From [Collinsella] massiliensis (GTDB lineage Bacteria; Actinomycetota; Coriobacteriia; Coriobacteriales; Coriobacteriaceae), in assembly GCA_000333815.1 (NCBI GenBank), contig CAPI01000014.1, forward strand, positions 1 through 39,674: a DNA stretch of 39,674 bases. Direction: 5' to 3'. The notes under the pieces are model-generated. The model had not been told where the DNA came from and did not search any database. It worked only from the letters and a program-made list of their open reading frames with translations. The first letter of the stretch is position 1; each line of letters begins with the position of its first letter. Of this stretch, positions 399 to 37,752 are shown piece by piece. The position numbers were made by a program, and so were the translations under genes.

Positions 399-1319
399 AT
401 GGAAGCGCCCGTCACCGAAGAGGGCATTCGCCATATTGAGAACTACCTGGGCCAGGGGGACATCGACGCCGCCCTGCCCGAGCTGCTCGAGCTGCGCGAC
501 GCGGTCGAGGACTACGCGAAGGACGCCTGCGTCACCACCGACGAGGTGCAGTTCTTCAGCTTCGCCGACATGTTCGAGCGTCTTGCGTACCGCCGCGTGG
601 AGCGCGACCCGCGCACGCTCGTGCAGGTGGACGCGCCCTTCGACCGCGTGTACGCCGACCTCGCCTTCGCGTACAGCGCCCAGCGCGAGTACGGCCTCGC
701 GCGCGACGCGCTCAAGCAGGCCGTGCGCTGGGATCCCATGAACTGCGCCTACCGCCTGGACCTCGCCGAGCTGTACCGCGTGCTCGGCGACGAGGACGAA
801 TGGGGCGCGCTCGCCTACAGCGTGCTCGAGCGCGCGGCCGACGCCGTGCTCTTCGGGCGCGCGTGCGCGGCGCTCGGCCAGTTCTTCCTGAACCGCGAGG
901 AACCGCTCCTCGCGGCCGGGTACGCCCGGCGCGCCGCGGCGTTCGCCCCGCGGGAGGAGGCGACCCGCGCGCTGCTCGAGCGCCTCATGCAGGAGGCGCC
1001 CGATGCGGCAGAGGCCTCGGACGAGGAGACCGCGCGCGCCCTGGGCGAGCAGGGCCTCTCCGGCGAGCCGAACGCCGAGATCGCCATCTGCCTGCTCATG
1101 TGCGCCACCGACGCCGCCCGCGCGGGCGACCGCGACGCGGCGACCCGCTACACGCTCCGCGCGCGCGACCTCGTGGGGGAGGACGCCTGCTCGGCGCTCA
1201 TCCGCCTCATCCGCGAGTCCGACGCCGAGCTCGCCTCGGAGCGGGGGGCGGGCGCCGCCGGAGCCGCCGCGGCCGCGCCGCAGGACGCAGGGGAGGGGGA
1301 CGCGCATGCCGAGTCGTAA
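399..1319 (+). CDS. TPR-like helical repeat protein of unknown function
   Basis: A 306-residue protein, mostly alpha-helical, with tetratricopeptide-like repeats around residues 80-210 (for example LAFAYSAQREYGLARDALKQ followed by a W-D-P turn, and AGYARRAAAFAP). The C-terminal tail is Ala/Gly-rich and low in complexity. There is no signal peptide or membrane segment, so it is probably a cytoplasmic scaffold. I chose ATG 399 because GAGAGGAC lies just upstream and the protein starts with a sensible helix; longer in-frame starts run back into rnr. It sits 50 bp after rnr, and its last 14 bases overlap smpB, which suggests translational coupling in an rnr-tpr-smpB operon. The function is not recognisable from sequence; a role in trans-translation would be inference from position only. 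Confidence 0.8.
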   Translation: MEAPVTEEGIRHIENYLGQGDIDAALPELLELRDAVEDYAKDACVTTDEVQFFSFADMFERLAYRRVERDPRTLVQVDAPFDRVYADLAFAYSAQREYGLARDALKQAVRWDPMNCAYRLDLAELYRVLGDEDEWGALAYSVLERAADAVLFGRACAALGQFFLNREEPLLAAGYARRAAAFAPREEATRALLERLMQEAPDAAEASDEETARALGEQGLSGEPNAEIAICLLMCATDAARAGDRDAATRYTLRARDLVGEDACSALIRLIRESDAELASERGAGAAGAAAAAPQDAGEGDAHAES

Positions 1320-1776
1320 GGAGCGCAAGCTCATCGCCAAGAACCGCTCCGCGCACCATGCGTACTTCATCGAGGAGACGTATGAGTGCGGCATCGAGCT
1401 CTCGGGGACCGAGGTGCGGAGCCTGCGCGAGCGCGCCTGCCAGATCACGGACACCTACGCGGTCATCCGCGGCGGGGAGTGCTGGCTCATCGGCGTGCAC
1501 ATCCACCCCTACAGCAACGGCTCGATCTTCAACCGCGACCCCGACCGCCGCCGCAGGCTCCTGCTGCACCGCAAGGAGATCAACCACCTCGACGTGAAGC
1601 TGCGCACGCGCGGCTATGCCCTCGTGCCGCTCGAGCTGTACTTCAACGCCGACGGCCGCGTGAAGCTCCTGCTCGGCCTGGGACGGGGCAAGAAGCTCTA
1701 CGACAAGCGCGACGACATGGCGAAGCGCGACATGCAGCGCGAGATCGAGCGCACCCTCAAGGAGCGCAACCGCTAG
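1306..1776 (+). CDS. smpB: SsrA-binding protein SmpB
   Basis: A 156-residue protein matching SmpB along its full length. It has an N-terminal KERKLIAKNRSAHHAYFIEE segment, GIELSGTEVRSLRE, the IHPYSNGSIFNRDPDRRRRLLLH region and the C-terminal basic tail (GRGKKLYDKRDDMAKRD) that enters the ribosomal A-site/mRNA channel. SmpB binds tmRNA and delivers it to stalled ribosomes. The start ATG 1306 has GGGGAGGGGG upstream and gives the usual MPSRKERK-type N terminus. It overlaps the preceding TPR gene by 14 bases. The tmRNA gene (ssrA) is not in this window. Confidence 0.97.
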   Translation: MPSRKERKLIAKNRSAHHAYFIEETYECGIELSGTEVRSLRERACQITDTYAVIRGGECWLIGVHIHPYSNGSIFNRDPDRRRRLLLHRKEINHLDVKLRTRGYALVPLELYFNADGRVKLLLGLGRGKKLYDKRDDMAKRDMQREIERTLKERNR

Positions 1777-4344: not shown

Positions 4345-4476
4345 ATGCAGAGCCTTGCGCGCGGGCACGCCGGCCACGGTGCCGGGTGCCGCCCCATCCC
4401 ACAGCCGAACCCCGTCGCACCCATGCCGTACGCGGCGCCAGCTTCCCAGGCGGTGATGCCCCATGGCATCGCTTAA
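4345..4476 (+). CDS. Possible 43-residue leader ORF overlapping the recJ start
   Basis: ATG 4345 has AAAGGACG upstream at normal spacing and lies downstream of a candidate -10. The frame encodes a Pro/Ala-rich peptide ending HGIA and stops at TAA 4474-4476, fourteen bases inside recJ. The recJ Shine-Dalgarno (AGGCGGTG, 4448-4455) lies within it. It could be a translated upstream ORF that couples or tunes recJ translation, or a chance frame. The peptide has no recognisable motif. Confidence 0.3.
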   Translation: MQSLARGHAGHGAGCRPIPQPNPVAPMPYAAPASQAVMPHGIA

Positions 4477-7400
4477 GACCACGCGCCGCTGGGCGCTCGC
4501 CCGCCAAGACCCCGCCCGCGCCGCCGCGCTCGCCGAGGCGCTGCACGTCGCGCCGCTTGTCGCGCGCATCATGGTGGCCCACGGCATCGAGACCGCCGAG
4601 GAGGCCGAGCGCTTCCTCACCCCCTCGCTCGACCGCGACTGGGCGGACCCGCTCATCATCCCCGGCATGGCCGAGGTGGCCGACCGTGTGGAGCGCGCCG
4701 TGCGCGCAGGCGAGGTCATCGCCGTGTTCGGCGACTTCGATGTGGACGGCATCACGTCGACCTGCCTGCTCACCGAGGCGCTGCGCGAGCTCGGCGCGCA
4801 CGTGCACCCGTTCATCCCCCGCCGCTTCGACGAGGGCTACGGCCTCACCGAGGCGGCGCTCGACCGCGTGGTGGCCTCCTGTGACCCGTCGCTCATCGTG
4901 ACCGTCGATAACGGGATCGCCGCTAAGCAGGAGGTGGGCTACCTGCGCGACCGCGGCATCGACCTCGCGGTGACGGACCATCACGAGCCGTCGGACGCCG
5001 TGCCTCAGGGCATCCCGCTCACCGACCCCAAGCTCGCTGCCGACGGCCCCTCGCGCGAGCTCGCCGGCGCCGGCGTGGCGCTCAAGCTCGTCCAGGTGCT
5101 CGGCGCGCGCCTCGGTATGCCCGACCTCTGGAAGCGCTACCTCGAGGTGGCGGCGCTCGGCACCGTGTCCGACATGATGCTCCTCACGCCCGAGAACCGC
5201 GCGCTCGTTGCCGAGGGCATCGCCCAGATGCGCGCCACGGCGCGCCCGGGCTACATCGCGCTCGCGAGCGTGAGCCGCGTGGACCTTTCCACCATCACGG
5301 CCGACGCCCTCTCGTTCTCGCTCATCCCCCGGCTCAACGCCGCGGGGCGCATGGCGGACCCGACGCTCGCCCTCGACCTGCTGCTCGAGCGCGACCCCAT
5401 CGAGGCGTCGCGCCTCGCCGCCCGGCTCGAGGAGACCAACCAGGAGCGCCGCTCCATCGAGGCGGAGCTCACCGAGGAGGCGCTCGCGCGCGTGGAGGAG
5501 ACCTACGCCGGCGGCCGCGTCATCGTGGTGGGCGGCGAGGGCTGGCACGAGGGCGTGAAGGGCATCGTGGCGAGCCGGCTCGTGAACCGCTACCACGTGC
5601 CCACGCTCCTGTTCTCCATCGAGGACGGCGTGGCGCGCGGCTCGGGGCGCTCCGTGGGCTCGGTGAACCTTTTCGACGCCGTCGAGCGCTGCTCCGACAT
5701 GCTCACGCGCTTCGGCGGCCATGCCGGCGCCGTGGGGGTGACGCTCCCGGCGGAGCGCCTGCCCGAGCTGCGCGCGCGGCTCGACGCCGTCCTCTCCGAG
5801 CTGCCGGAGGAGGCGTTCGAGGACACGGGCGAGATCGCCACGATGGTCGACCTCGCCGAGCTCGACATCGACACCATCGAGCAGGTCTCGCTGCTCGAGC
5901 CCTTCGGCCAGGGCAACAAGGTGCCGCTCCTCGCGGCGACGGGCGTCACCATGGCCGACCGCTTCTGCGTGGGCAAGACCGCCGACCACATGCGCTTCAC
6001 GGCGACCGACGGCGTGTCGAGCGTGCCCGCCATCATGTTCCGCGTGCCCGACATCGAGGAGGTCTGCGCCTGCGATTCGGTGGTCGACCTCGTGTTCGAG
6101 GCGGTCGCGGAGCGGTGGCAGGGCAGGGTCAAGCCGAAGCTCATGGTCCGCGACATCCTGCGCCATACGGACGAGGACGCGCTGCCGCAGACAGGGGAGG
6201 GGGCGGACGCGCTGCCCGCGGCTCCTGCACCCGAGGGGGCGGATGAGGCGGCGCATGGCGATGCAGCCGGCCCCGCCACGGGCGCCCGACGCCCCGCCCC
6301 CGCTGCGGACGCCGCGCCCGTGGCCGCCGACCGCCGAGCGCTCCTCGCGCAGCTCTCCTACGATGAGCTCACGCGCACGCTTCTCCACACGTTCATCGGC
6401 TCGGCCGAGCCGCACCGTGCGCAGCGGGAGGCGCTCGACGCCCTCGCGCGCGGGGAGCGCACGCTCGCCGTCATGGGGACGGGGCGCGGCAAGTCGCTCA
6501 TCTTCCAGGTGCATGCCGTGCGCGAGGCGGTGCTGCGCGGCCAGGCGAGCATCCTCGTCTACCCGCTGCGCGCGCTCGTGGCCGATCAGGCGTTTCACCT
6601 CGTGAGCGCCTGCGCCGCCCTCGGCGTGCGCGCCGCCGTGCTCACGGGCGAGAGCACGCGCGCGGCACGCGACCGGGCGTTCGCCGAGCTCGCGGCGGGC
6701 TCGCTCGATATCGTGCTCACCACGCCGGAGTTCCTCGCCATCCATGTCGGGCGCTTCGAGCGCTGCGGCCGCGTGGGCTTCGTCGTCGTCGACGAGGCGC
6801 ACCATGTGGCGCGCGCCCGCGCGGGCGAGCGGAGCGCCTACCTGGAGCTTCCGCATGTGCTCGCCGCGCTCGGGGAGCCCTGCGTGCTCGCCGTCACCGC
6901 CACGGCCGATGCGTCTGCCGCACGCGACATCACGGGGCTTTTGGGCATCGAGCGCGTCGTGGTCGACCCCACGGTCCGCGAGAACCTGGAGCTGGAGGAC
7001 GACCGCGACCTCGCGAGCCGCGAGAACCGCCTCGTCTCCATCGTGGCGACGGGCGAGAAGTGCGTCGTGTACGTGAACTCGCGCGACCAGGCCACCTCCC
7101 TCGCCCGTACCCTGCGCAAGCGCGTGCCGGAGCTCGCTGGCCGCGTCGCGTTCTACCACGCGGGCCTTGCGCGCGCGGACCGCGCCCGCGTCGAGGAGGC
7201 GTTCCGCACGGGCAACCTCACCTGCATCGTGTCCACCTCCGCGTTCGGCGAGGGCGTGAACCTGGCCGACATCCGCCACGTGGTCCTCTACCACATGCCG
7301 TTCTCGGCCACGGAGTTCAACCAGATGAGCGGCCGCGCCGGCCGCGACGGGGCGCCCGCGACCGTGCACCTGCTCTACTCCGCGCGCGATGCCCGCATCA

Positions 7401-7840
7401 ACGAGCGCCTGCTCGACGCCGCCGCCCCCGAGCGCGACGAGCTCGTCACGCTCTACCGGGCGCTGCAGACCATGTGGCGCTCGAACCTCACGCAGACGGG
7501 CGAGCGGAGCTTCTCGGCGACCGACCGCGACATCGCGGGCATGTGCCTCGCCATCGACGCGCGCACGCCCGTGGACGAGCGCATGGTGGAGAGCGGCATC
7601 GCCATCTTCGAGGAGCTCGGCTTCACGAGCGTCTCGGGCGTGGAGGCCGCGCGCCGCATCGAGATGGTCGAGAACCCGGGGCGCATGGAGCTCACCGCCT
7701 CCATCCGCTATCTCGAGGGGCTGCGCACGCGCAACGCGTTCGACACCTTCCGCCGCTGGGCGCTCGATGCGCCCGCTCGTGATATGCTTGCACGAGTGAA
7801 CCGTCCTATCACGCCGCAGGCTCCCGCGGCCCGGGGTTAG
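4463..7840 (+). CDS. recJ: RecJ single-strand exonuclease fused to a RecQ-like SF2 helicase
   Basis: A 1125-residue protein, against about 570-790 for ordinary RecJ. Residues 1 to about 575 are RecJ: an RRWAL start, the DHH phosphoesterase motif FGDFDVDGITST near 89-100, TDHHEP near 171-176, DHHA1 segment LIPRLNAAGRM and GGHAGAVGV. An Ala/Pro-rich linker (about 580-640) leads to a superfamily 2 helicase: Walker A GTGRGKS near 672-678, DEAH near 776-779, VTATAD, and motif VI QMSGRAGRDG near 953-962. The last 110 residues (IFEELGF, then MELTASIRYLEGL) resemble the C-terminal module of Gram-positive RecJ, so the helicase may have been inserted ahead of that module. An in-frame stop at 4454 fixes the start at ATG 4463, preceded by AGGCGGTG. 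It would unwind DNA and degrade 5'-ended strands in recombination and repair. rel follows after eight bases. Confidence 0.92.
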   Translation: MASLKTTRRWALARQDPARAAALAEALHVAPLVARIMVAHGIETAEEAERFLTPSLDRDWADPLIIPGMAEVADRVERAVRAGEVIAVFGDFDVDGITSTCLLTEALRELGAHVHPFIPRRFDEGYGLTEAALDRVVASCDPSLIVTVDNGIAAKQEVGYLRDRGIDLAVTDHHEPSDAVPQGIPLTDPKLAADGPSRELAGAGVALKLVQVLGARLGMPDLWKRYLEVAALGTVSDMMLLTPENRALVAEGIAQMRATARPGYIALASVSRVDLSTITADALSFSLIPRLNAAGRMADPTLALDLLLERDPIEASRLAARLEETNQERRSIEAELTEEALARVEETYAGGRVIVVGGEGWHEGVKGIVASRLVNRYHVPTLLFSIEDGVARGSGRSVGSVNLFDAVERCSDMLTRFGGHAGAVGVTLPAERLPELRARLDAVLSELPEEAFEDTGEIATMVDLAELDIDTIEQVSLLEPFGQGNKVPLLAATGVTMADRFCVGKTADHMRFTATDGVSSVPAIMFRVPDIEEVCACDSVVDLVFEAVAERWQGRVKPKLMVRDILRHTDEDALPQTGEGADALPAAPAPEGADEAAHGDAAGPATGARRPAPAADAAPVAADRRALLAQLSYDELTRTLLHTFIGSAEPHRAQREALDALARGERTLAVMGTGRGKSLIFQVHAVREAVLRGQASILVYPLRALVADQAFHLVSACAALGVRAAVLTGESTRAARDRAFAELAAGSLDIVLTTPEFLAIHVGRFERCGRVGFVVVDEAHHVARARAGERSAYLELPHVLAALGEPCVLAVTATADASAARDITGLLGIERVVVDPTVRENLELEDDRDLASRENRLVSIVATGEKCVVYVNSRDQATSLARTLRKRVPELAGRVAFYHAGLARADRARVEEAFRTGNLTCIVSTSAFGEGVNLADIRHVVLYHMPFSATEFNQMSGRAGRDGAPATVHLLYSARDARINERLLDAAAPERDELVTLYRALQTMWRSNLTQTGERSFSATDRDIAGMCLAIDARTPVDERMVESGIAIFEELGFTSVSGVEAARRIEMVENPGRMELTASIRYLEGLRTRNAFDTFRRWALDAPARDMLARVNRPITPQAPAARG

Positions 7841-7848
7841 GGGATACC

Positions 7849-10194
7849 ATGGATGCTGCAACGCGTGCCGCGCACGATGCGTCGCTCATGTCGTCCGCGA
7901 AGATGATGCACTACACCCGTGCGGACGACCTGCCACCCGAGATCTGCGCGGATGACTACGACAACCTGGCGCAGCTGTGCGCGAAGTACATGAGCGCCGA
8001 GGACTGCGCCACGGTGGAGCACGCCTACTGCTTCGCGGCCGAGAAGCACTCCGCGCAGCGCCGCCGCTCCGGCGAGCCCTACATCAACCACCCCGTTGAG
8101 GTCGCCATCATCCTGGCGGAGCTCAACATGGACTGCGACGTGGTGTGCGCGGCGCTGTTGCACGACACGGTCGAGGACACCGAGGTCTCGCTCGCCGACG
8201 TGACGAGCCTCTTCGGCGAGACCATCGCCGTGCTCGTGGACGGCGTCACGAAGCTCACGAACATCGAGGTCGACAACATCGACGAGAAGCAGGCGCTCAA
8301 CCTGCGCAAGATGTTCCTCGCCATGTCGCAGGACATCCGCGTCATCATCGTCAAGCTCGCCGACCGCCTGCACAACATGCGCACCCTCGCGGCGCTCCGC
8401 GAGGACCGGCGGCTGTTCAAGGCGCGCGAGACCATGGACGTGTATGCGCCGCTCGCCGACCGCCTGGGCATGAGCTCCATCAAGTGGGAGCTCGAGGACC
8501 TCTCGTTCTTCTACCTCGAGCCCGAGGCGTACCAGCGCATCGCGCGCATGGTGGCCGAGAGCCGCGAGGTGCGCGAGCGCTACCTCGCCGAGACCATCAA
8601 GACGCTCACCGACGAGCTCAAGCGCGCCGGCCTCACCGATTTCCAGGTGAACGGCCGCTCGAAGCACTACTGGTCCATCTACCAGAAGATGAAGCGCAAG
8701 GGCAAGGAGTTCTCCGAGATCTACGACCTCGTGGCGCTCCGCGTGATCTGCCGGACGGTGGGCGACTGCTACTCGGCGCTCGGCGCGGTGCACACCCTCT
8801 GGCACCCCATGCCCGGCCGCTTCAAGGATTACATCGCCACGCCGAAGCTCAACAACTACCAGTCGCTCCATACCACGGTCATCGGTCCCACGGCGCGCCC
8901 GCTCGAGATCCAGATCCGCACCTACGAGATGCACGAGCAGGCCGAATACGGCATCGCGGCCCACTGGCTGTACAAGAAGTCGGGTGGGTCGAGCGCCGCG
9001 AAGAGCTCGGAGGCGCAGAAGCTCGACGACCAGATCAACCGCCTCAAGCACTCGCTCGACTGGGTGACCGCCGAGGAGATCGACGACCCCAAGGAGTTCC
9101 TCGACACGCTCAAGGTCGACCTCTACGACCAGGAGATCTTCGTCTTCACGCCGAAGGGCGAGCTCATGAGCCTGCGCGCGGGCGCCACGCCGCTCGACTT
9201 CGCCTACGCGGTTCACACCGAGGTGGGCAACCATTGCGTGGGCGCGCGGGTGAACGGCGTGCAGACGCCGCTCGCGCACGAGCTGCAGATGGGCGACCGC
9301 GTGGAGATTCTCACGAACAAGAACGCGCGCCCCTCGCGGGACTGGCTCGCGCTCGTGCGCACCCCGTCGGCACGCTCGAAGATCAAGCGCTACTTCGCCG
9401 CCGCTACGAAGGACGAGAACGCCGCCGCCGGCCGCGAGGCGCTCGCGAAGGACCTGCGCAAGCGCGGCTACGGCATCTCCACGCAGCGCACGACGCGCGC
9501 GCTGAACACCGTGTGCGAGCAGCTCAACTACGTGCGCGTCGAGGACCTGTTCGCGGCGATCGGCTCGGGCAAGGTGGCGTGCCGCATGGTGGGCAACCGC
9601 GTGCAGCAGATTCTCGACCCGCAGCCCGAGGAGAAGCATGGCTCGGACGTGGAGGCGGTGCTCGCGGCGCGCGGGTCGAACCGCAAGCCGCGCCGGCCGC
9701 GTCGCGACAACTCCGGCGTGATCGTGAAGGGCAACGCGGGCAACGACCTGCTCGTGCGCCTCGCGCACTGCTGCAACCCCGTCGCGGGCGACGACATCGT
9801 GGGCTTCATCACGCGCGGCCGCGGTGTGTCGGTGCACCGGGCGAACTGCCCGAACGTGAAGGGCCTCATGGAGCATGCGGAGCGCATGATCGAGGTCGAA
9901 TGGGACAAGGGCGCCGACGCGCTCTTCCAGGTGGAGATCGTGGTCGAGTGCCTCGACCGCATGGGGCTGCTGAAGGACGTGACGATCGCCATCGGCGACG
10001 CGGGCGCGAACATCCTCTCCGCCTCCACCTCCACCGACCGCAACGGCGGCGCCGAGCTGCGCTTCCTCGTGCAGATCTCGGACGCGAGCGGGCTCGACCC
10101 GCTGCTCGCGCAGATCAGCCGGGTGGAGAGCGTATACGACGCGCGGCGCCTCATGCCGGGGGAGGGTGCCACGACCCGCAAGCCGCGCGGATAA
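7849..10194 (+). CDS. rel: Bifunctional (p)ppGpp synthetase/hydrolase, RelA/SpoT family
   Basis: A 781-residue long RSH protein with all domains. The HD hydrolase has INHPVEVA and HDTVEDT with His105-Asp106. The synthetase has GRFKDYIATPK near 323-333. The TGS domain (DLYDQEIFVFTPKGE) begins near 424, then a helical and zinc-finger-like region (ARLAHCCNPV) precedes a C-terminal ACT domain from about 692. The RFKD loop is the basic RxKD form found in bifunctional Rel/SpoT rather than the acidic ExDD of hydrolase-dead RelA, and the HD motif is intact, so both activities are expected. It sets the stringent response to amino-acid starvation. ATG 7849 follows recJ by eight bases (TTAGGGGAT as weak Shine-Dalgarno), indicating co-transcription. 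Confidence 0.97.
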   Translation: MDAATRAAHDASLMSSAKMMHYTRADDLPPEICADDYDNLAQLCAKYMSAEDCATVEHAYCFAAEKHSAQRRRSGEPYINHPVEVAIILAELNMDCDVVCAALLHDTVEDTEVSLADVTSLFGETIAVLVDGVTKLTNIEVDNIDEKQALNLRKMFLAMSQDIRVIIVKLADRLHNMRTLAALREDRRLFKARETMDVYAPLADRLGMSSIKWELEDLSFFYLEPEAYQRIARMVAESREVRERYLAETIKTLTDELKRAGLTDFQVNGRSKHYWSIYQKMKRKGKEFSEIYDLVALRVICRTVGDCYSALGAVHTLWHPMPGRFKDYIATPKLNNYQSLHTTVIGPTARPLEIQIRTYEMHEQAEYGIAAHWLYKKSGGSSAAKSSEAQKLDDQINRLKHSLDWVTAEEIDDPKEFLDTLKVDLYDQEIFVFTPKGELMSLRAGATPLDFAYAVHTEVGNHCVGARVNGVQTPLAHELQMGDRVEILTNKNARPSRDWLALVRTPSARSKIKRYFAAATKDENAAAGREALAKDLRKRGYGISTQRTTRALNTVCEQLNYVRVEDLFAAIGSGKVACRMVGNRVQQILDPQPEEKHGSDVEAVLAARGSNRKPRRPRRDNSGVIVKGNAGNDLLVRLAHCCNPVAGDDIVGFITRGRGVSVHRANCPNVKGLMEHAERMIEVEWDKGADALFQVEIVVECLDRMGLLKDVTIAIGDAGANILSASTSTDRNGGAELRFLVQISDASGLDPLLAQISRVESVYDARRLMPGEGATTRKPRG

Positions 10195-36410: not shown

Positions 36411-36495
36411 TGGTAGGGGCGGTGGGACTCGAACCCACAATCCCGAAGGCGAGAGATTTTAAGTCTCCTGCGTATGCCAATTCCGCCACGCCCCC
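36411..36495 (-). tRNA. tRNA-Leu (anticodon UAA)
   Basis: Read on the minus strand, acceptor GGGGGCG pairs with CGCCCCT (one G-U) followed by ACCA, so CCA is encoded. The anticodon loop CTTAAAA gives UAA. The long variable arm TCGCCTTCGGGA and TTCGAGTCC T-loop are typical of a class II leucine tRNA. Confidence 0.95.
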
Positions 36496-36673
36496 ATGGC
36501 TGCATAGTCTAGCAGAAGATGCCCGCGCTCCATTGCACGGCGCCGTGCAGACGGCGGAATCGCCGCACCCCGCGTCGCGCCACCGCCGCGCGCCCGCATG
36601 GTATGCTTGCCGTGCGCTGCGGGACTACGTACCCGCGCGGACATCCCATTGCACGGGGGAGAGGAGCAGCTCC

Positions 36674-36958
36674 ATGAAGAAGATCGTGTTGGCCTGCGGC
36701 TCGGGCATCGCCACCTCGACGGCGGTCGCGCGCAAGGTCACGGCCCTGCTCGACGAGCGTGGTTTTGCGGGCGACTATGAGATCGTGCAGTGCGCCATCT
36801 CGGAGGCGGCCGATGCGTGCGCGGACGCCGATGTGCTCGTGGCGACGACGGTCGCGCCGAGCGGTCTTGTCTGCCCGTACGTGAGCGGCGTCCCGTTCCT
36901 CACCGGGGTGGGCCGCGATGCGGCGGAGCGATCCCTGCTCGAGGCACTCGCGGACTAG
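36674..36958 (+). CDS. Orphan PTS IIB, galactitol (GatB)-type
   Basis: A 94-residue protein beginning MKKIVLACGSGIATSTAVARKV. C8 in the CGSGxATS loop is the phosphocysteine of GatB/lactose-type IIB domains. The C-terminal half (ADVLVATT, VSGVPFLTGVGRDAAE) completes the small alpha/beta fold. No IIA or IIC component of this family is adjacent; the flanking genes are leucine tRNAs. It may serve a permease encoded elsewhere or act as a regulatory phospho-acceptor. ATG 36674 follows GAGGAGC, and a TATGCT -10 candidate is at 36602-36607. Confidence 0.88.
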   Translation: MKKIVLACGSGIATSTAVARKVTALLDERGFAGDYEIVQCAISEAADACADADVLVATTVAPSGLVCPYVSGVPFLTGVGRDAAERSLLEALAD

Positions 36959-37112
36959 GCGCGCCGAGTGCGTGCCAGCTCCGCACCCCGGCCGTCATGG
37001 CCTCATACGCAGCCCCGGCTACTTGCGCCGGCAGCTTTTTTCCCGAGGGGGCTTGCGCGGGCGTGCCCGCTAGGGTAAGATGAACCGCGCTTCGGCAAGT
37101 GCCGAACTCCAT

Positions 37113-37199
37113 GCGGGCGTGGCGGAATTGGCAGACGCGTATGGTTCAGGTCCATATGGGGGCAACCCCGTGAAGGTTCAAGTCCTTTCGCCCGCACCA
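37113..37199 (+). tRNA. tRNA-Leu (anticodon CAG)
   Basis: Acceptor GCGGGCG pairs with CGCCCGC, followed by A and encoded CCA. The anticodon stem TATGG/CCATA has loop TTCAGGT, anticodon CAG. The long variable arm GGGGGCAACCCC marks a class II tRNA. Confidence 0.95.
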
Positions 37200-37210
37200 T
37201 AGAATCGTGA

Positions 37211-37235
37211 AGGCTCCGGTCTCGGAGCCTTTTTC
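37211..37235 (+). terminator. Intrinsic terminator after tRNA-Leu(CAG)
   Basis: AGGCTCCG, loop GTCT, CGGAGCCT, followed by a run of T. It starts 11 bases after the tRNA. Confidence 0.9.
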
Positions 37236-37240
37236 ATATC

Positions 37241-37275
37241 GATGCCCCTAAGCGAAAGCGCACCGAAGGGGCATC
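37241..37275. other. Inverted repeat in the leader of the small membrane protein gene
   Basis: GATGCCCCT (37241-37249) and AGGGGCATC (37267-37275) are perfect 9-bp arms with a 17-nt loop, 29 bases before ATG 37305. Possible 5'-UTR hairpin. Confidence 0.5.
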
Positions 37276-37304
37276 CTGTTCACGAGCGAGCGAAAGGTGC
37301 CCGA

Positions 37305-37511
37305 ATGTCCTGTCTCTACCTGTTCATCATCCTGCTCATCGCGTCGGCGATCATCTCGGTCATCCTGTCCTTCCTGGGCGTGCTCTTCGTCGGCGCGCTC
37401 AAGCTCATCCCCATCGTGCTCGTCATCCTCGTGGTGCTCGTGCTCTTGGGGAAGGTGAAGATCTCGATCGTACGCAACGATGACGACCAGGATCACCGCT
37501 GGCTCAGCTAG
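37305..37511 (+). CDS. Small two-helix membrane protein, unknown function
   Basis: A 68-residue, very hydrophobic protein: two membrane segments (about 3-25, LYLFIILLIASAIISVILSF, and 27-50) and a charged tail (KISIVRNDDDQDHRWLS). ATG 37305 follows GAAAGGTG by five bases; an in-frame ATG at 37242 would lie in the leader hairpin. It lies alone between two leucine tRNA genes. No family is recognised. Confidence 0.65.
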   Translation: MSCLYLFIILLIASAIISVILSFLGVLFVGALKLIPIVLVILVVLVLLGKVKISIVRNDDDQDHRWLS

Positions 37512-37665
37512 GGCCCGGCGGCGTCTCGCCCACCGAGGGAGCCCCGGCGCTCCGCGTGCCCTGCGCCCCGCACCCCGCGCCGGTTCGATAAAACGCCCCC
37601 GACCCCGTGCGATTTTGTGGTACGATAGCACGGCTTGATAGTCGCATCGCGTCGCGCAGACAGCT

Positions 37666-37752
37666 GCCCGAGTGGCGGAATTGGCAGACGCACCAGACTC
37701 AAAATCTGGCGCTGGCAACAGCGTGCGAGTTCGACCCTCGCCTCGGGCACCA
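37666..37752 (+). tRNA. tRNA-Leu (anticodon CAA)
   Basis: Acceptor GCCCGAG pairs with CTCGGGC, then A and encoded CCA. Stem CCAGA/TCTGG with loop CTCAAAA gives anticodon CAA. The variable arm is GCGCTGGCAACAGCGT. Confidence 0.95.

Follow-up and report, generated by a model that had tools for sequence, protein, structure and literature searches.

RecJ and RecQ are textbook examples of separate proteins, and their cooperation has to be inferred. RecJ digests single-stranded 5' ends and by itself does not begin on duplex ends that are blunt or carry a 3' overhang; the Escherichia coli enzyme requires RecQ to resect such ends. Deinococcus radiodurans RecJ is stimulated on 3' overhangs by both RecQ and SSB, and its C-terminal domain binds the SSB tail (PMC4846377). 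Here we describe a gene of [Collinsella] massiliensis (Actinomycetota; Coriobacteriia) that encodes a RecJ and a RecQ-like helicase as one polypeptide. The gene lies in a stretch of 39,674 nucleotides, hereafter the window, which is contig CAPI01000014.1 of assembly GCA_000333815.1 (positions 1 to 39,674, forward strand). The fusion is a conserved architecture, and the point of greatest interest is that the C-terminal domains of Gram-positive RecJ proteins appear to descend from it.

Domains of the fusion protein

The gene occupies one open frame of 1125 codons on the forward strand (4463-7840), running from an ATG at 4463 to a stop codon at 7838-7840 with no internal stops (Table 1). Five Pfam domains (DHH, DHHA1, RecJ_OB, DEAD and Helicase_C) match the protein, each above its gathering cut-off, with DEAD at residues 652-819 (3.6e-21) and Helicase_C at residues 857-963 (5.5e-23). 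The score against the RecJ equivalog TIGR00644 of NCBIfam is 464 bits (cut-off 396.9), which makes the protein a member of the RecJ family, and RecQ-family NCBIfam models, TIGR01389 among them, match with E 1e-56. When the protein was compared with sequences in the PDB, its N-terminal half matched RecJ chains and residues ~631-996 matched the cores of RecQ, WRN and BLM. A preliminary description of this DNA had reported the RecJ and helicase motifs as intact in one 1125-residue frame, and all of them are present: DHHE starts at residue 172, GTGRGKS at 672, DEAHH at 777 and QMSGRAGRDG at 954. Judged by these matches, the protein is a RecJ fused to a superfamily 2 (SF2) RecQ-like helicase without RQC or HRDC domains, as that description had proposed. 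The DHH nuclease retains its catalytic motifs and is predicted to be a 5'-3' single-stranded DNA exonuclease; for the fused helicase, 3'-5' DNA unwinding would be expected from its superfamily.

Structure prediction, which the preliminary description had put forward as a check alongside domain mapping, gave a full-length model (predicted local distance difference test score, pLDDT, 87; predicted template modelling score 0.78) whose top structural match was Staphylococcus aureus RecJ, with model residues 1-1102 aligned to residues 2-746 of the chain. The best-matching helicase structures were the RecQ, WRN and BLM cores (Z 25.7-30.6), and the RecQ and WRN cores aligned with model residues ~630-1117. 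Modelled alone, the tail that follows the helicase (pLDDT 92) forms a winged helix plus additional helices. Foldseek returned weak, general winged-helix matches for this tail, and a structural aligner ranked residues 643-756 of S. aureus RecJ first (Z 10.1 over 110 residues, root-mean-square deviation 4.5), above winged helices of the CRP type (Z 7.7). The listed structural matches of the tail included no RQC-type winged helix, a result that excludes nothing.

Families other than the window's lineage have a longer protein (~1200-1280 residues); the surplus between the OB fold and the helicase is a HIRAN domain, which PF08797 detects with E-values of 1e-9 to 1e-18. Of 65 full-length proteins on named contigs, 55 matched a HIRAN profile, as did 19 of the 46 fusion proteins that we extracted from a sample of the class. 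The window's lineage lost this domain, and in the window protein its place is taken by residues 572-617, a linker that was modelled with low confidence and is apparently disordered. In human HLTF, HIRAN recruits the protein to replication forks and sets the direction of its motor (PMC4666394).

Table 1. Features of the recJ-helicase gene and its downstream neighbour (window positions)
Feature	Positions	Strand	Basis
recJ-helicase fusion gene, 1125 aa	4463..7840	+	Pfam and NCBIfam matches; frame common to class
DHH phosphoesterase domain, residues 86-234; DHHE motif 4976-4987	4718..5164	+	PF01368 1.6e-20
DHHA1 domain, residues 351-446	5513..5800	+	PF02272 3e-15
RecJ OB fold, residues 462-564	5846..6154	+	PF17768 2.1e-19
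Disordered linker, residues 572-617; site of HIRAN in most relatives	6176..6313	+	pLDDT < 50
RecA1 lobe, residues 632-850; Walker A GTGRGKS 6476-6496, DEAHH 6791-6805	6356..7012	+	PF00270 3.6e-21, motifs
RecA2 lobe, residues 851-984; motif VI QMSGRAGRDG 7322-7351	7013..7414	+	PF00271 5.5e-23, motifs
Winged-helix tail, residues 985-1120, homologous to Bacillota RecJ C-terminal domain	7415..7822	+	pLDDT 92, structural and profile matches
rsh (RelA/SpoT-type) gene, conserved neighbour	7849..10194	+	ATG 9 bases past recJ stop codon

Spread of the fusion and its probable relics in Bacillota

A taxonomic survey found the fusion throughout the class, in more than 20 families, and in Bacillota. Each of 246 genomes of the class that were searched contains a match, and for most genomes of the order the listed matches cover residues 1-1120 in one frame. 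Among 35 genomes from further families, RecJ and helicase share one frame of ~1210 codons in most; in a few draft genomes of this set the fusion is divided over contigs or the RecJ part is lacking. In one genome of the order (G234:C3:1449599-1453302) the fusion appears as overlapping frames of 409 and 852 codons, which may be a frameshift or a genuine split. A collection of named genomes holds the fusion in Collinsella, Olsenella, Parafannyhessea, Tractidigestivibacter, Candidatus Oleimmundimicrobium and many Coriobacteriia metagenome-assembled genomes; the closest of the named matches listed, from Collinsella sp. An2, is 77% identical across the protein and belongs to the same family as the window but to a different genus. 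The fusion is also found in sister lineages within the window's own phylum, and the best 80 matches in the named collection include a member of the Bacillota, Orenia metallireducens, whose 1239-residue protein has the complete RecJ-HIRAN-helicase-tail order and is followed by apt- and rsh-like genes. In our Bacillota sample, 10 of 119 genomes, Orenia counted, encode a full-length fusion with intact helicase motifs. Of 119 fusion proteins from the two phyla, all retain DHH, and 117 retain any given one of helicase motifs I, II, V and VI.

The gene order recJ-apt-rsh or recJ-rsh occurs in Listeria, Monoglobus, Vescimonas and Orenia, and the window gene sits in this canonical recJ position ahead of rsh. 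A tblastn search of plasmids with the Orenia helicase and tail returned only ordinary RecQs among its best rows. Separately, PLSDB contains multi-megabase "plasmids" with chromosomal-looking recJ regions (NZ_CP054613.1, NZ_CP154629.1 and the like), which are probably misassigned chromosomes.

In a tree of helicase cores, the fused helicases do not group with free RecQs: all of them form one clade relative to 22 free RecQs, with support of 100/100 (88 in a quick tree that included very distant helicases). This topology points to a single origin of the fused helicase.

The preliminary description had placed the helicase ahead of the C-terminal module found in Gram-positive RecJ. The relationship of the tail to that module held up. 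PF10141, the Pfam family of the module, matches 25 of 41 RecA2-plus-tail sequences of the class at E <= 1 (best 7.3e-6), though the window protein stays below its gathering score and the relatives shown score < 26.4 bits. A profile-profile alignment by hhalign to RecJ C-terminal regions from Paenibacillus, Listeria and Acetoanaerobium gave probabilities of 95-96%. We then assembled 54 post-OB regions of Bacillota RecJ proteins, 40 picked by length, 11 that match or nearly match the helicase profile and three named ones. A RecA2-plus-tail profile built from intact fusions matched 53 of these at E < 1e-3. It matched none of 1134 decoys, made by shuffling or reversal, and each of the 53 scored higher than the best decoy. 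The sole region that did not pass (Acetoanaerobium, E 0.041) is one of the named ones, so all 40 regions chosen by length pass. The 433 further open frames taken from these loci gave no match to the profile, and a profile of the tail matched none of 19 free helicases. Searched against PDB sequences, neither the tail profile (A4) nor an OB-RecA2-tail chimera profile (A5) reached the C-terminal domain of S. aureus RecJ. Taken with the structural comparison of the tail, the profile matches establish that the window tail is homologous to the PF10141-type C-terminal domain of Bacillota RecJ, and by profile RecA2 is likewise homologous to the C-terminal region of these proteins.

The Bacillota proteins form a graded series. 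L290 is an intact fusion; L289 (1116 residues) has a weak DEAD match and has lost the motifs; L282 retains HIRAN with faint helicase matches; L280 (864 residues) has RecA2 and the tail without RecA1; and in other Bacillota RecJs little remains beyond the tail. Over the 54 regions, RecA2 alone is matched in 22 and RecA1 alone in five, and a HIRAN remnant persists in one RecJ without helicase motifs. A fusion from Coriobacteria (L090:2950-6324, minus strand) has apparently lost its ATPase recently: DEAHH reads DGAHR, ATGRGKS reads ATGCGKS, motifs V and VI are altered (TSAFDEGAN and QMSSRAGRDG), and identity to relatives is 47-49% in RecA1 (63% between two intact relatives) and 72-74% in RecA2.

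Because motif-less Bacillota RecJs keep remnants of RecA2, RecA1 and HIRAN, the change is better read as loss of the helicase, and the Gram-positive RecJ C-terminal domain, that of S. aureus included, looks like a worn-down helicase remnant. In the RecJ-core tree full and relic forms interleave, so that at least six or seven state changes are needed, although only two are required by the branches with the best support. Given the single origin of the fused helicase, the simpler reading is that it was lost repeatedly, and we think it somewhat probable that the C-terminal domain of RecJ in S. aureus and Listeria descends from the fusion through several independent losses of the RecA1 lobe together with the ATPase. 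Transfer of whole genes is a possible alternative. Our search of the open literature, which covered few subscription papers, returned only incidental matches to a RecJ with HIRAN or a RecJ-RecQ fusion, and in it we could not find a report of the fusion architecture or of a helicase origin for the Gram-positive domain.

Proposed mechanism and alternatives

We propose, with a probability of roughly two in three, that the RecJ nuclease is tethered in cis to the RecQ-like helicase so that unwinding and digestion are coupled, and that the helicase was acquired once and decayed in many Bacillota. A flexible tether would join the 5'-3' single-strand exonuclease to a 3'-5' helicase bearing a winged-helix tail. 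The helicase would load at a double-strand end, a gap edge or a stalled fork and travel 3'-5' on the strand destined to become the 3' tail, and the displaced 5' strand would pass to the RecJ of the same molecule. Coupling of this kind, the likely function by analogy with RecJ and RecQ, would make recruitment of a separate RecQ unnecessary, and the "autonomous end-resection machine" of the preliminary description is plausible in this sense. In the fuller form of the protein, HIRAN between the two enzymes might grip the DNA end or fork and add targeting. In many Bacillota the helicase would have decayed until RecA2 remnants and the winged-helix tail were left to form the C-terminal domain of RecJ.

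Several observations weigh against this proposal. The RecQ-family models score 190-193 bits, below their curated cut-offs of 219.8 and 640.2, and Pfam detects no RQC, HRDC or RecQ zinc-binding domain in the window protein even at E 10; in the predicted structure, the helicase core is followed by a winged helix that RQC models do not recognise. With these scores and the RQC strand-separation module missing, strong unwinding is not guaranteed. HIRAN is absent from the window protein by both Pfam and the HIRAN profile. Deep branches of the RecJ-core tree are poorly resolved and the outgroup gave no clean root, so an ancestral state common to both phyla, as opposed to some transfer, is not proved. 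Finally, the genome retains a separate, canonical RecQ with RQC and HRDC (contig 67), and RecQ activity alone would therefore not require the fused helicase. For the same reason we rejected the idea that the fusion replaces RecQ; it is an addition.

The helicase half might instead work on forks or recombination intermediates, with RecJ joined to it for co-localisation or dosage and no direct coupling. The separate RecQ, the ~46-residue disordered linker and the position of HIRAN, a fork-recruitment domain in HLTF (PMC4666394), next to the motor in relatives would all fit such an arrangement. Since the fusion is to RecJ, the known resection partner of RecQ, is kept across the class and Bacillota, and has intact helicase motifs in nearly all cases, we regard it as unlikely. 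Rather less likely, in our estimate, is that the motor serves mainly as a regulatory or DNA-gripping module, an ATP-gated clamp, and that RecA2 and the tail are the part that actually binds DNA or a partner protein, SSB for example. RecA2 and the tail do outlast RecA1 in many Bacillota, RecA1 has diverged much more than RecA2 in the apparently ATPase-dead L090, and the C-terminal domain of D. radiodurans RecJ binds the SSB tail (PMC4846377); against a clamp stand the ATPase motifs, all intact in the window protein and in nearly all fusions.

We are slightly more doubtful still of the evolutionary order given in the preliminary description, by which the OB fold of RecJ was already followed by a C-terminal winged-helix module and the helicase entered between the two. 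That the tail occurs without a recognisable helicase in Bacillota is in its favour. Against it, RecA2, RecA1 and, once, HIRAN remnants are present in motif-less RecJs, and on the RecJ-core tree relic forms are interspersed among full ones, yet all fused helicases fall into one clade. A sequencing or assembly error joining two genes, such as the missing stop near residues 580-640 that the preliminary description had considered, is ruled out for practical purposes because independent genomes from all over the class, and Orenia from another phylum, have the same single frame.

The remaining DHH and helicase genes of the genome were also considered. The two other DHH matches were set aside as candidates for a second RecJ on inspection by eye: one (L002) looks like a PpaC-type pyrophosphatase, and the other (L003), between rbfA- and truB-like genes, is probably NrnA. 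The search for separate copies suggested in the preliminary description yielded a RecQ and, on this inspection, no second RecJ. On contig 12, a 1077-codon RecQ-family helicase (L149:3667-6897, plus strand) carries a C-terminal phosphoribosyltransferase domain; it is a second unusual RecQ fusion and the third RecQ-family helicase of this genome. The genome also has a 1290-codon AddA-like frame that scores under its family cut-off. Elsewhere in the window, three tRNA-Leu genes (taa, cag and caa), one on the opposite strand, lie inside 1.4 kb (36411-37752), and the C-terminal part of a frame at 1003-1776 (plus strand) resembles SmpB by eye; a tmRNA gene was not found in the window.

Comparison with known systems

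A natural RecJ-helicase fusion makes the coupling of RecJ and RecQ directly testable within one chain. Reading the Gram-positive RecJ C-terminal domain as a helicase remnant would explain this domain and predict its placement relative to DNA, and the natural series from intact through ATPase-dead and RecA1-less to tail-only proteins could indicate what in a helicase remains of use once its motor is dead.

RecJ and RecQ of the RecF pathway in E. coli and D. radiodurans share with the window protein the nuclease family, the helicase superfamily and the expected division of labour (PMC4846377). There they are two proteins, whereas the window protein is one polypeptide that coexists with a free RecQ, and its helicase belongs to a separate clade and lacks RQC and HRDC. 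Bacillota RecJ proteins with PF10141 (ssDNA-exonuc_C), such as S. aureus RecJ (8y30), consist of a RecJ core and a winged-helix tail homologous to that of the window protein, and several Bacillota share the recJ-rsh neighbourhood. The PF10141 domain has neither a RecA1 lobe nor helicase motifs, and is catalogued solely as a C-terminal domain of RecJ. In Parabacteroides distasonis (L342:902-3608), a separate recQ begins ~10 bases after recJ, an operon version of the same pairing.

WRN, like the window protein, combines an exonuclease and a RecQ-type motor in one chain. Its exonuclease is of the 3'-5' DnaQ-like type and it has both RQC and HRDC, whereas the window protein has a DHH nuclease of predicted 5'-3' polarity and neither of those domains. 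HLTF joins HIRAN to an SF2 motor in one chain, as do most relatives of the window protein, but it is a SWI/SNF double-stranded DNA translocase with a RING domain, and the window protein itself is without HIRAN (PMC4666394). S. aureus DinG is likewise a fusion of an SF2 helicase and an exonuclease in Gram-positive bacteria; its exonuclease runs 3'-5' and its helicase 5'-3', opposite to the polarities predicted for the window protein (PMC12345164).

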